Below, in pieces: positions 32,463 to 38,185 of a stretch of DNA of 64,000 nucleotides. Every line of letters starts with the position of its first letter. The stretch's first letter is position 1. The notes beneath the pieces were generated by a model that did not search any database, was not told where the DNA came from, and saw nothing but the letters and a program-made list of their open reading frames with translations. The DNA comes from Kosmotoga olearia TBF 19.5.1 (GTDB lineage: Bacteria; Thermotogota; Thermotogae; Petrotogales; Kosmotogaceae): positions 496,001 through 560,000 of the forward strand of contig NC_012785.1 of assembly GCF_000023325.1 (NCBI RefSeq), read 5' to 3'. Position numbers and translations under genes: made by a program.

Positions 32463-33245
32463 GTGAGGATCAAAGTAATTCTCAAAGAAGCCAAAAACAA
32501 GGCTTTCAAAAGAGATCATTACCATCAGCTCGCTGGCATGATTTACAACATGATAAGAAAATCCAATCCAGAATTCTCCTCATGGCTCCATGAAAAAGGA
32601 TTTATGGATGGAAACAAAAAATTCAAATTTTTCTGCTTCTCGAGGTTAATAGCTCCAAGAAATCACTACGAATACATCGGAGAAAACAAAGAATTAATCC
32701 TATTCAAAACCGATCAAGTATCTCTATACATTTCCTCACCGGTAGAAGAGTTCCTCACAAACCTGATAGAGTTTTTTCTTGCCGAGGATTACGTAAAGCT
32801 TGGGGATCACACGTTGAAAGTAGACAGCGCCAGGGCACTCACTACACCAGATTTTGGAGATAAAACTGTGTTTAAAGCAATCACACCAATAGTATTATCA
32901 AAAAGGGTTGAAGGATATAACACTCCTTTCTACATAAGAGCCTACCAATCCCCCGATGAATTCGATGAATACCTCACAAAAAACGCGAAAGAAAAATGGA
33001 AAATCTTCACTGGTCAAGAAAACGCCGACATATCCCTTCAAGTCGATAGAACATATCTCGAAAAAAAGGGAAAAAGAACCTCGTGCAAAATCAACCTCAG
33101 TCCTAACCAGACAATCATAGGATCAGTAGTCCCTGTAATTGCTATCGGAGATTCCGAGATCATAAGATTCCTATATGATGTTGGCATTGGCCAGAAAAAC
33201 TCCCTGGGAATGGGAATGGTCGAATTAGCAGGATACAAATATTAA
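32463..33245 (+). CDS. cas6: CRISPR endoribonuclease Cas6
   Basis: A 260-residue Cas6 of RAMP type. The N-terminal RIKVILKEAKNKAFKRDHYHQL is the first ferredoxin-like strand and helix, with His residues at about 19-21 that could include the catalytic one. The C-terminal glycine-rich loop VGIGQKNSLGMGMVEL is the defining Cas6 motif. The GTG start at 32463 has AAGGAGG 8 bases upstream. It cuts pre-crRNA within the repeat. The only array in the window starts 1.05 kb downstream on the same strand. No cas1, cas2 or effector genes are adjacent, so interference complexes must come from elsewhere. Confidence 0.9.
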   Translation: MRIKVILKEAKNKAFKRDHYHQLAGMIYNMIRKSNPEFSSWLHEKGFMDGNKKFKFFCFSRLIAPRNHYEYIGENKELILFKTDQVSLYISSPVEEFLTNLIEFFLAEDYVKLGDHTLKVDSARALTTPDFGDKTVFKAITPIVLSKRVEGYNTPFYIRAYQSPDEFDEYLTKNAKEKWKIFTGQENADISLQVDRTYLEKKGKRTSCKINLSPNQTIIGSVVPVIAIGDSEIIRFLYDVGIGQKNSLGMGMVELAGYKY

Positions 33246-34251
33246 ATATCAACGCAATACGTAATCATATAGTAGGGACACAGCATGCTGTATAAAATTC
33301 GAGATCCGAGACCCGAGATCCGAGAAGGCTGCTTCGCAGCGGACACGAATCCCTTTGGGATTGGCACGAACTCCTGCGGAGTTGTTTCGAACCACTTCGT
33401 GGTTGTTATAAACTGCTTCGCAGTTGAAAAAATTGACACTTAAAACGATAACTGAGATCCGAGATTCGGTATTGTAGGACACAGCATGCTGTATAAAATT
33501 CGAGATCCGAGACCCGAGAATCCGAGAAATCAAGAACAGTAGATCCTGAATCAAGTTCAGGATGACAGCTTCTGTTTATAAAGGGAGATGCCGGACACAG
33601 CGTCTGCAAGCCTCAGTCTTCGAACGTCGCTCTACCAGCTGACAGCCTCTGCAAGCGACAAATGTTTTCCATCTGCAAAGCCATTCGTCTCAATCTCAAA
33701 GGGATTCGTACCCGCCTAATTTTCATAGCAATTCTTCCATAGCGTGCTTAATTTTACATTTACATACCCGAACTCATTTCTCGAATTCAGTCACTTGACT
33801 TCACTTTGTAACAGTTCTCTGTAATGTGCTATTTTTCTATTTCACACACGTTAGTTTGCTTTCCTTATTGTCGGATCTCTGTTAAATTATATTACGTTTG
33901 TTACCGCGAGATGTTAAACGCTCGTTTTATACATCGTTAAATCGTACTATTTGCATTTTTATTAGTCGCTTTCAGAGCTTAATATATTTGTTACAGACCT
34001 TCGTCGAATCAACCGACCGGTAAAATTTTAGGTAATTCCTATCATTGATTAACTACCCACGCTATTTAGAAATTCTCTAAAATCCTTAACAGAGATCCGA
34101 CAAATCCTTGGTCATTCGACTGTCAACTCGTTTACATTCACAGGGTTTACTGTACCCCTCTCCGGACAACGAATCTATATCTTATCCCTCCTTACAGATT
34201 AACTTTTTAGAAATAATTATTTCTCTCCCTATCAAAAATTCCCAAATTCCC
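33246..34251. repeat. Intergenic repeats and CRISPR leader region (no gene)
   Basis: 33270-33660 repeats the familiar modules: GGACACAGCATGCTGT, heptads of GATCCGAG type, an array (33327-33425), a GATCCTGAA/TTCAGGATGAC hairpin (about 33541-33566) and an AGCTGACAG block. From about 33720 the sequence becomes AT-rich and unique and carries no frame; this is the long leader upstream of the CRISPR array. Confidence 0.7.
33327..33425 (-). repeat. Mini-palindrome array, five units, period 21 bp
   Basis: Starts at 33327, 33348, 33369, 33390 and 33411. Read on the plus strand: gctgc-ttc-gcagc, aatccc-ttt-gggatt, aactcc-tgc-ggagtt, aaccac-ttc-gtggtt and aactgc-ttc-gcagtt. The linkers are gacacg, ggcacg, gtttcg and gttata. 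Minus-strand loops are therefore gaa, aaa, gca, gaa and gaa. Confidence 0.92.
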
Positions 34252-34281
34252 TTGACTTAACGCATTGCTTTTCCTTATAAT
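34252..34281 (+). promoter_or_regulatory. Promoter of the CRISPR array
   Basis: TTGACT (34252-34257), an 18-bp spacer and a perfect TATAAT (34276-34281). Transcription would start about 34288, some 12 bp before the first repeat, giving pre-crRNA on the plus strand and defining the left side as leader. Confidence 0.75.
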
Positions 34282-34299
34282 TTCCTTGTAATATATACT

Positions 34300-34719
34300 G
34301 TTTGGTAAGAACCAATGTGGTATGGAAACTTTGGCAGCGGGGGTGGGAATTGAACCCACTGACCTAGTTTGGTAAGAACCAATGTGGTATGGAAACGTGT
34401 ATGAGCCTTCATCATTGATGAAACTATTTGTGTTTGGTAAGAACCAATGTGGTATGGAAACTCCTTTTTATTTTACGTAAAACTTTATATTCTGACTGGT
34501 TTGGTAAGAACCAATGTGGTATGGAAACTATTTTCGATGTCCGTAAAAGTACTACCAATAAATAGTTTGGTAAGAACCAATGTGGTATGGAAACAACACA
34601 CTACTCACTCCTCGCACGCCGGACATAAAGTTTGGTAAGAACCAATGTGGTATGGAAACTAATGAACCTGTTGAGCTACCCGGGAAAGCGCCTGGTTTGG
34701 TAAGAACCAATGTGGTATG
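34300..34719 (+). CRISPR. CRISPR array, 7 repeats and 6 spacers
   Basis: The 30-bp repeat begins GTTTGGTAAGAACC and ends AATGTGGTATGGAAAC. Repeats start at 34300, 34367, 34432, 34499, 34565, 34630 and 34695. The first six are identical; the last keeps 25 bp (to 34719) and then diverges, marking the distal end. Spacers are 35-37 bp. The leader and promoter are on the left. The GTATGGAAAC end is shared with Thermotoga-type I-B/III repeats served by Cas6. Spacer 1 (34330-34366) is the reverse complement of a tRNA 3' end. Confidence 0.97.
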
Positions 34720-34969
34720 AATGGCCTGTGGCCATGAGGCTTGCGGACGCTGTCAGCTGATGGAGCGACGTTCGAAGACTGAGGCTTACGACGTTGAAGT
34801 AAAAACCAATTATGCAAGCTGGCATAACAGCCTTACTTCTTAGGAGGTACCGAATCCTCGATCTCAGATTTCATCAGCCTTGCAAGCGTCAGCCTCTGCA
34901 AGCGTCAACCTTGTGAGCGTCCGGAGCGCAGCTCCGCACTTCAGCGCATGATCCTTGCGCAAAAAAATT
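34720..34969. repeat. Dispersed repeat joined to the distal CRISPR end
   Basis: From 34720 the sequence matches 3201-3278 with few changes (up to about 34798), then has a segment shared inverted with 29562-29640 (TATGCAAGCTGGCATAACAG-like word), then a block (34868-34945) matching 3350-3425. No gene. It ends at the stop of the minus-strand ATPase. Confidence 0.8.
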
Positions 34970-36361
34970 CTATTCGAACAACTCTTCCAATGTGTAAAGC
35001 CGTATTGTTTCATCATTTTTTGCCCTCTCCAAAAGTTTGTAGGTAAAACCAGACTTTGAGAACAAAACGTATATTTTTTTCTCAGTATTGAAAAGTTCAC
35101 TTTTTTCAACAAGTTTATTCAAATCAGAAATGTCAACTTTTCGATTCTGCCATTTACATTCGCCAAAAAGCATGCCTTCATTTCCTAGGCCAACAATATC
35201 TATTTCTTCCTGCCTCTTTTTGAAAGGGTTATTCCCCCACCATCTTCCAATCTTTTCAAGCCGTACGGTAAATTCTCCCTTAGCGTTTTTTCTTTTTACA
35301 AAATCCGCGCAAACCCTTTCAAATGTCTTTCCAGTATATTCGCTTAATCCAGGTAATATTTTGCTATTCAAAATATATTCACTCATACCGGTTTCTACGA
35401 GCGTACGATTTGGAAAAATGAAGGTATACCAAAATCTGAACAACTCATCTCGTATAAAGTACAATGATTTTTTTGAGTTTTCTTTTTCTGTTACAGGAAT
35501 TTCTTTCCCAACAATCTCTAATTCCATCAGAATCTTTATGTACTTTCCCGTTTTGTCATTCCGCTGCCCAATTTTGTTGGCAATATCGTTGAGTCTGCTC
35601 GCCCCAAATGCAATAGTCTCTATTATTGCATTGTATAAAGCAGGTTCTCTCAACTCCTGTTTTAGAAGAAACCTCGGCTCTTCATATAAATATGCGGATG
35701 TATCCAGAAAGTTGTTCATTATATTTTGCTTTATAGAAAGAGCCTCATCCCATTTCAACAAATACTGAGGAACTCCCCCGAGTATTCCATAAGTAATGAC
35801 TTTTTCTTCAGCTCCTAGTGAGGGGAAAAAATTGGAAGCTTCAAGATAATTGAATGGTTCTATTTTGAATTGCGCTGTTCGTCTCCCGAAAAGAGGACTT
35901 TTACTTCCAAGCACTTCCTTCTCCATAAAGCCTATTGAAGAACCACACAGAGCAATGAATAACTTTGAATTGGCAAATTCATGATCGATCATTCTCTGAA
36001 GTAAAGAAGGAACTTCCGGGCTTGCGTTTACCATGTACGGAAACTCATCTATTACCAACAACAATTGTTCTTTTCTGGCCCTTTCACCTATAAACCTGAA
36101 AACCTTCTCCCAGGACTCAAATGGTGCTATTGTTTCAGATAGCCCAAAATGCTCGAGCACAAATTTCGAAAAACTATCGAGCATAACCTTCTCATTCACT
36201 TCATCACATACGAAAAAAATACTGTTCTTCCCTTCAGAAAACTTTTTTAACAACGTCGTCTTTCCAACACGACGTCTTCCATAAACAACAACCAATTGAA
36301 AATTCCCCTTTTTCCAGAGTCTATCCAGTTTTTCTAATTCCATCCTTCTACCAATAAACAT
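34970..36361 (-). CDS. Archaeal-type ATPase with DUF234 domain
   Basis: A 463-residue P-loop ATPase. It starts MFIGRRMELEKLDRLWKKG, then Walker A VYGRRRVGKTTLLKKF (about 27-42) and Walker B LLLVIDEFPYM (about 98-108). A winged-helix region follows. The C-terminal about 100 residues (KNAKGEFTVRLEKIGRWWG, then EEIDIVGL, GECKW) look like the DUF234 restriction-endonuclease-like fold, with a D...E-x-K pattern. Such genes are common in archaea and Thermotogota, often multicopy; the role is unknown but a mobile or toxin-like behaviour has been suspected for the group. A 36-bp double-dyad motif lies 18 bp upstream of the start. Confidence 0.85.
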   Translation of the reverse strand: MFIGRRMELEKLDRLWKKGNFQLVVVYGRRRVGKTTLLKKFSEGKNSIFFVCDEVNEKVMLDSFSKFVLEHFGLSETIAPFESWEKVFRFIGERARKEQLLLVIDEFPYMVNASPEVPSLLQRMIDHEFANSKLFIALCGSSIGFMEKEVLGSKSPLFGRRTAQFKIEPFNYLEASNFFPSLGAEEKVITYGILGGVPQYLLKWDEALSIKQNIMNNFLDTSAYLYEEPRFLLKQELREPALYNAIIETIAFGASRLNDIANKIGQRNDKTGKYIKILMELEIVGKEIPVTEKENSKKSLYFIRDELFRFWYTFIFPNRTLVETGMSEYILNSKILPGLSEYTGKTFERVCADFVKRKNAKGEFTVRLEKIGRWWGNNPFKKRQEEIDIVGLGNEGMLFGECKWQNRKVDISDLNKLVEKSELFNTEKKIYVLFSKSGFTYKLLERAKNDETIRLYTLEELFE

Positions 36362-36698: not shown

Positions 36699-37991
36699 TC
36701 AAGGAGACAGACTACCTGAAACTGTTCCCAAATGGCAGTTGGTTTGAGCAACAGAGACAGGCAGGGATAACTTTTCTTTCGTCATTTTTTTAGTCCCCGG
36801 TATGCTATTTCTTGTTGTATAATTTAACCGAGGACTCTTGTTCCCACGTGAGGAAAGGAAGAGTTCCTCATCGTAGGCTTTTAGGTTTCTTAGCATGGCG
36901 AAGGCTATCTTGACGAGGATGTTCGCCAATGCTCTGAGGGCAAGAGATGGTTTCTTGCCCTCTTTATTTGTCTTCTTGTCATAGTAGCCTTTCATCCATG
37001 CTCCGCATTTCTTCGCGTTTATCGCCATCATATGGAGAATGCCTCTGAGTTTCTTGTCACAGTTTTTCCTCATCCTGCACATGCGAAAATTACCACTCTG
37101 GGATACTATTGGCATAGTTCCACAATACTTCTGGAAATCCCTGTAATTTTTGAATTCGTGTGTAAGAAATGCTGTTACCAATGCTACTCCTGTGGCTACT
37201 CCAACACCCGGGAGCGTCAGTATTATGTTGTATTTCGATTTACGTAGTTCTTTCTCCATCTCTTTTGTTATTTTCTTTTTCTCTCTTTTTGCTTCCAGAA
37301 GTTGTGTGGCAACATTTGCGATCATGTCCCTGGTGTATTTCGACATGCCCCAATCAATGGCTTTTTCCCTGAGTTCTTTGACCTTTCTTTTCAATGAGGA
37401 TGTGTAGCGTAGATGATTCGCTTTGAAATGTCTATTTATCTCCTTGTCAGAAATCTTCCTGAGTTCGGTTACATCCGGGCATATGGTGAGCAGGAATATC
37501 CTCCCGTCACAATCTGTCCAAGAATTACCCATCACCCTAGCATATTCAGGGAAATAATTATGCAGTTCGTTTTGAAGTTTGTTCTTAAGCCTCGAGGCCA
37601 TGTCGGTATAGTACCTGTAATGCCTCAACAATTCCCTGAAAAGCATGCCAAGTTCGTCATGTGTTGCCTTAATACAATATTCCGGGTGTTCTTTGTAGGT
37701 AAGGGCAATACACCTGGCATCCGTTGAATCAGTCTTCACACCATTTGAATGATAGCCTCTGGCTTCCTTTGACCTTTTCGGTGGCAGGAGATAAACCTCT
37801 TTCCCTCTGGATAGCAAGAAATCTCCCAAGCGATTAAAACTCTCTTCAATGACGAAAACAGCGTCTTTTGATACCCTTTTCAACAGTTTCTCATATCCCG
37901 CTATACCATCTTTGATCTTAAAAACCTTATCCTGTTCGATAGAATAGCAGGTGTGAAAATTCCACGACCAGTCAATTCCCACAATATCCAT
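36699..37991 (-). CDS. IS110-family transposase
   Basis: About 430 residues from the ATG at 37991, which has GGAGG upstream; a longer start at 38012 is less likely. The N-terminal DIVGIDWSWNFHTCYSIEQ is the RuvC-like DEDD domain, with further acidic residues in VFVIEES and DSTDARCIA. The C-terminal transposase_20 domain holds ILTLPGVGVATGVALVTAF and the Ser-containing MPIVSQSGNF region. IS110 enzymes act as RNA-guided recombinases using a bridge RNA from the element's noncoding end. The frame is intact, so the element may be active. Confidence 0.92.
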   Translation of the reverse strand: MDIVGIDWSWNFHTCYSIEQDKVFKIKDGIAGYEKLLKRVSKDAVFVIEESFNRLGDFLLSRGKEVYLLPPKRSKEARGYHSNGVKTDSTDARCIALTYKEHPEYCIKATHDELGMLFRELLRHYRYYTDMASRLKNKLQNELHNYFPEYARVMGNSWTDCDGRIFLLTICPDVTELRKISDKEINRHFKANHLRYTSSLKRKVKELREKAIDWGMSKYTRDMIANVATQLLEAKREKKKITKEMEKELRKSKYNIILTLPGVGVATGVALVTAFLTHEFKNYRDFQKYCGTMPIVSQSGNFRMCRMRKNCDKKLRGILHMMAINAKKCGAWMKGYYDKKTNKEGKKPSLALRALANILVKIAFAMLRNLKAYDEELFLSSRGNKSPRLNYTTRNSIPGTKKMTKEKLSLPVSVAQTNCHLGTVSGSLSP

Positions 37992-38185
37992 ACTGATTCC
38001 TCCAAAAAACATTGTGCAGTCAATGAGTACAGGTTAATCGATGTAGCGTTCCTGGGTTTCCCCGGATATCCTACTATTGATCCTCTAGTACTCCCAGGAT
38101 GGAAGAGGGAGTGTGAGAAGCAGTCGCTCTTATGGCGGATCGGTTCTCTGTTCCTCTCTTCCTCCTGACTGCCTCCTTTATTTTA
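37992..38185 (-). ncRNA. Candidate IS110 bridge-RNA region (5' noncoding end)
   Basis: About 190 bp without a frame lie upstream of the transposase and stop where the dispersed TCTCGG repeat begins (about 38190). This is the place and size of the bridge RNA in IS110 elements. It can form hairpins, for example around CTGGGAGTACTAGAGGATC and the nearby GGATATCCGGGG. The exact element ends are not visible because IS110 lacks inverted repeats. Confidence 0.5.

Follow-up and report, generated by a model that had tools for sequence, protein, structure and literature searches.

Spacer 1 of a short CRISPR array in Kosmotoga olearia TBF 19.5.1 reads, on the minus strand, like the 3' end of a tRNA gene, which raises the question of where this spacer was taken from and whether it is directed against the host itself. 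The array (array A) lies at positions 34300–34724 of the window, i.e., the whole analysed stretch of 64,000 nucleotides, corresponding to positions 530300–530724 of a genome that consists of a single contig of 2,302,126 bases. The original prediction, made from the sequence of this stretch, had proposed either an att site of an integrating element or self-targeting of a host tRNA.

Array A and its leader-proximal spacer

The 30-nt repeat of array A is GTTTGGTAAGAACCAATGTGGTATGGAAAC; six perfect copies are seen at 34300–34659, followed by a degenerate seventh copy at the right end. The features of the locus, in window coordinates, are as follows.

32463–33245, plus strand: cas6, a stand-alone gene about 1 kb from array A
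34000–34299, plus strand: AT-rich CRISPR leader, with 86% identity to the array B leader across 300 bp
34300–34329, plus strand: repeat 1 of array A, GTTTGGTAAGAACCAATGTGGTATGGAAAC
34330–34366, minus strand: spacer 1, a tRNA 3' end (part of the variable region, T-arm, 3' acceptor strand, G73, CCA, and AA)
34367–34659, plus strand: repeats 2–6 and spacers 2–5, the latter without likeness to tRNA in the HMM scan
34660–34694, plus strand: spacer 6, with a weak D-arm-like score on the reverse complement
34695–34724, plus strand: degenerate terminal repeat 7 of array A

Spacer 1 is flanked by CRISPR repeats and, at 37 nt, has a normal length (range 32–41). The 300 bp to the left of array A match the sequence upstream of array B (genome 439134–442253, minus strand; leader from position 442254 upward) at 258 of 300 positions. 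This identity, together with the degenerate repeat at the right end, places the leader on the left, so that spacer 1 was probably the last to be added to array A, as originally predicted. Its predicted crRNA would be read from the plus strand, antisense to the tRNA, and would be expected to carry the 5' tag AUGGAAAC.

Several further elements surround the array. Two 49-nt inverted repeats (33608–33656 and 34739–34787, 92% complementary) bracket the leader and array A; they may be either a mobile unit or an intergenic repeat of the dispersed kind. The sequence past the last repeat (34725–34965) recurs within array B between repeats 39 and 40; array B may thus consist of two arrays joined together. 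Directly adjoining array A is a gene for an archaeal-type ATPase of the ATPase_2/DUF234 kind (34970–36361), followed by an IS110-family transposase (36699–38012).

Likeness of spacer 1 to a tRNA 3' end

The minus strand of spacer 1, TAGGTCA-GTGGG-TTCAATT-CCCAC-CCCCGCT-G-CCA-AA (TAGGTCAGTGGGTTCAATTCCCACCCCCGCTGCCAAA), shows a T-stem of five perfect base pairs closing a TTCAATT loop, and then seven bases of the acceptor, G, and CCA. The original reading of the reverse complement as a T-arm followed by CCCCGCT, a discriminator G, and CCA is exact. A strict motif for tRNA 3' ends (perfect 5-bp stem, TTCRANN loop, 7 nt, N, CCA) is found in spacer 1 only among the 132 spacers of the three arrays of this genome; 660,000 shuffled spacers, scanned on both strands, give no match. 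Spacer 1 also ranks first with HMMs built from the host's own class I and class II tRNAs, scoring 16.5 and 18.8 bits, respectively, while the best of 5,280 shuffled control strands reaches 8.8. By both controls, spacer 1 is a piece of a tRNA beyond chance, and its identity as a real, correctly read tRNA 3' end with an encoded CCA is confirmed. Base 48 of this tRNA would be A, C being usual at this position. Spacer 6 was considered as a possible tRNA 5' end; its reverse complement scores 5.5 bits, two of the 5,280 shuffled strands score higher, and this candidate was not accepted.

Matches in the host, its relatives, and viruses

The genome of K. olearia contains 46 identified tRNAs, and none of them has the 3' end of spacer 1; the closest is tRNA-Ser(GGA), with 26 of 37 matching positions, 11 mismatches, and a longest run of 10. 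The 30-mer core of spacer 1 is absent, at up to three mismatches, from 60 genomes of relatives. Neither the T-arm followed by CCCCGCTG nor any tRNA-like 3' end with the acceptor strand of spacer 1 and a discriminator G is found in the 102 other Thermotogota genomes searched, and an exact 25-mer of spacer 1 has no match in the genomes of 84,980 species (one genome each). Self-targeting of a host tRNA, one of the two proposals, is not supported by the comparison with the 46 host tRNAs, which include no copy of the protospacer; since no host tRNA is close enough to spacer 1, the host would be spared. The other proposal, that spacer 1 marks an att site at which an element integrates in this host, finds no support either, because an att copy must equal the host tRNA end and no host tRNA end equals spacer 1; the searches of the relatives and of the other Thermotogota genomes, in which no identical tRNA 3' end beside an integrated element was seen, speak against an att site in the phylum too. 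The expected tRNA gene with this acceptor end is thus lacking in the host, while mobile elements provide near relatives of it only.

These relatives are viral tRNA genes. The full protospacer has no exact match in the viral contigs, phages, plasmids, or genomes searched, which cover few viruses of the host's habitat, and the plasmid search gave nothing convincing. However, the T-arm with CCCCGCTG matches 17 viral contigs, and the 24-mer GTGGGTTCAATTCCCACCCCCGCT, which does not include the discriminator, occurs exactly in five, in all of them at the 3' end of tRNA-Met(CAU). The best match is the tRNA-Met(CAU) of contig L091 from IMG/VR (32 of 37 positions, including CCAAA), and phage tRNA-Met records rank top in the INPHARED search. 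Erwinia phage Hena2 also carries such a tRNA-Met(CAU) gene. In the five viral contigs the T-arm and the 3' acceptor strand are identical to those of spacer 1, whereas position 73 is A (T in Hena2) instead of G, and the variable region differs as well. G73 argues against tRNA-Met as the source, which may have been tRNA-Ser, tRNA-Trp, or another tRNA with G73. The tRNA-Ser(UGA) genes of three viral contigs (L249, L251, L254; at least 14 tRNAs per contig, in clusters of 14–26) share with spacer 1 the T-stem GTGGG/CCCAC, the T-arm pattern with CCCCGCTG, the acceptor strand CCCCGCT, and G73; they match it at 28–29 of 37 positions and differ in having a G1-U72 pair, no encoded CCA, and another variable region.

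No instance of CCCCGCTGCCA after the T-arm was seen in the viral contigs. The pattern of AGCGGGG at the 5' and CCCCGCTGCCA at the 3' side retrieved one genuine tRNA among the matches listed, of the Pyl type with a CUA anticodon (25 of 37 positions); in the genome collection, no tRNA is called among the matches listed for it. This CUA-anticodon tRNA, called as tRNA-Pyl and with the acceptor AGCGGGG/CCCCGCT and G73, is located at positions 1953–2028 of a 369-kb viral contig (L097).

A second spacer shows a similar relationship. Array C (genome 719736–725197; 84 repeats within three mismatches of GTTTATAGAATACCTATGAGGAATTGAAAC) adjoins the type I-B cas operon, and its spacer 13 (C13; genome 720554–720589) is AGGTGTAGTTTTGTCAT-GCAGGCGTGGCGGAATTGG, in which GCAGGCGTGGCGGAATTGG corresponds to nucleotides 1–19 of a tRNA-Leu and is preceded by 17 upstream bases. 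GCAGGCGTGGCGGAATTGG is found exactly in four viral contigs, all with a tRNA-Leu-like sequence at this place, two of which are called as tRNA-Leu by ARAGORN. The host tRNA-Leu genes match C13 at best at 17 of these 19 positions, and at 3–6 of the other 17 bases; the acceptor of the C13 tRNA-Leu is seen in viral tRNA-Leu genes and in no host tRNA-Leu. Taken alone, the HMM score of C13 is weak (6.8 bits, exceeded by one of 5,280 shuffled strands); the case is therefore carried by the exact viral matches, which suggest that C13 is a second tRNA-derived spacer, from the 5' end of a foreign tRNA-Leu.

Within array B (L041) and within array C (L233), other spacers are related to one another. In array C, spacers 31/76 and 35/58 form pairs with a one-base difference, the latter pair being also of unequal length, as would be expected if one site had been taken up from different variants of a phage. 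Spacers 15/82 of array C overlap by 26 nt on opposite strands, and spacers 15/16 of array B by 16 nt on the same strand, which suggests clustered sampling of one phage region. In array B, spacers 26 and 27 are exact duplicates, and the block 32–34 is duplicated as 35–37. A gene near array B (L041, 11358–12308, minus strand) encodes a SIR2-like domain akin to the SIR2 part of short Argonaute systems, and is a possible defence gene.

Origin and acquisition of spacer 1

In our assessment, spacer 1 is probably an ordinary spacer from the 3' end of a tRNA gene on a foreign replicon, most likely a phage; the phage origin is deduced from near relatives, not from an exact protospacer. Like ordinary phage-derived spacers, it has a leader-proximal place, a normal length, no host target, and a foreign-type sequence; it differs from them in that its protospacer lies in a tRNA gene rather than in a protein gene. 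In a 60-kb phage genome with five tRNA genes, roughly 1% of the possible protospacers would lie in tRNA genes, by our own estimate; hence, it is unremarkable that two of about 128 different spacers are pieces of tRNAs.

Another source, which we regard as unlikely, is an attP or att copy on an element whose integration target is a tRNA gene in a different host, the element having later entered this strain. Among bacterial and archaeal att sites, tRNA 3' ends are the most frequent (PMC6563490), and spacer 1 covers exactly this region, from the T-arm to CCA; however, an att copy should equal the chromosomal tRNA end of its host, and, besides the lack of such an end in K. olearia, the end is present in no Thermotogota genome searched and the 25-mer in none of the 84,980 species genomes. 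C13, moreover, spans a tRNA 5' end together with 17 bases upstream of it, the side on which att sites do not usually lie (PMC6563490). Compared with an element from another host, tRNA genes carried by phages offer the simpler origin. Lower still is the probability that spacer 1 stems from chromosomal tRNA DNA of another cell, obtained by natural transformation or cell contact. Archaeal spacers against chromosomal genes of other species have reportedly been found in Haloferax mating studies, but the 25-mer is in no sequenced bacterial or archaeal species genome searched, and both tRNA spacers match viral tRNA types.

The remaining alternatives can be given hardly any weight. That the crRNA targets or regulates a host tRNA would agree with its antisense orientation and with the type III effector genes of the host, but is contradicted by the sequence, the best host tRNA having 11 mismatches in 37 positions. 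Equally improbable is a chance resemblance of hairpin-bearing non-tRNA phage DNA to a tRNA end: as free RNA, the 37-mer indeed prefers a hairpin, CAGUGGG/CCCGCUG, over the T-arm, but this does not affect the DNA evidence, as the motif is absent from all shuffled spacers, the HMM score is far above the controls, and every exact match of the 24-mer is a tRNA gene.

The acquisition machinery of the host agrees with a DNA source. The single Cas1 of the genome (Cas1b-like, 329-aa frame) sits in the I-B operon with Cas4 and is not fused to a reverse transcriptase; acquisition from DNA is therefore expected. No reverse transcriptase gene is fused to or lies beside cas1, which speaks against acquisition of spacer 1 from RNA via RT-Cas1. 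Six reverse transcriptase genes are located far off (genome 1393820, 1415243, 158231, 1110413, 1321139, and 1521383), five of them in open frames of 462–467 aa, and are possibly group II introns. A type III-C-like Cmr module adjoins the I-B operon, and further genes with Cas10 domains are found at 640 kb and 1,345 kb.

With a phage source, the probable course of events would be as follows. A phage carrying a tRNA gene would have entered the cell, a piece of its DNA at the tRNA 3' end would have been taken, and the host Cas1 with Cas4 (Cas2 presumably being in the same operon) would have inserted it beside the leader. The array A transcript would be cut by Cas6, the product of the nearby stand-alone gene, and the crRNA, antisense to the tRNA, would guide DNA and/or RNA interference against the phage, probably through the type I-B or the Cmr-type III complexes. 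A more specific role, in which the host repeatedly retains spacers against tRNAs carried by phages and its type III complexes, guided by the antisense crRNA, find or destroy the phage tRNA itself, denying the phage its translation supplement, seems to us highly unlikely.

A literature search of partial coverage turned up no report of spacers directed at phage tRNAs. The results remove a suspected case of self-targeting of a host tRNA. They also indicate that K. olearia, a thermophile, was probably attacked by tRNA-carrying phages absent from the collections searched, and the two tRNA-derived spacers may serve as bait sequences for finding such phages.
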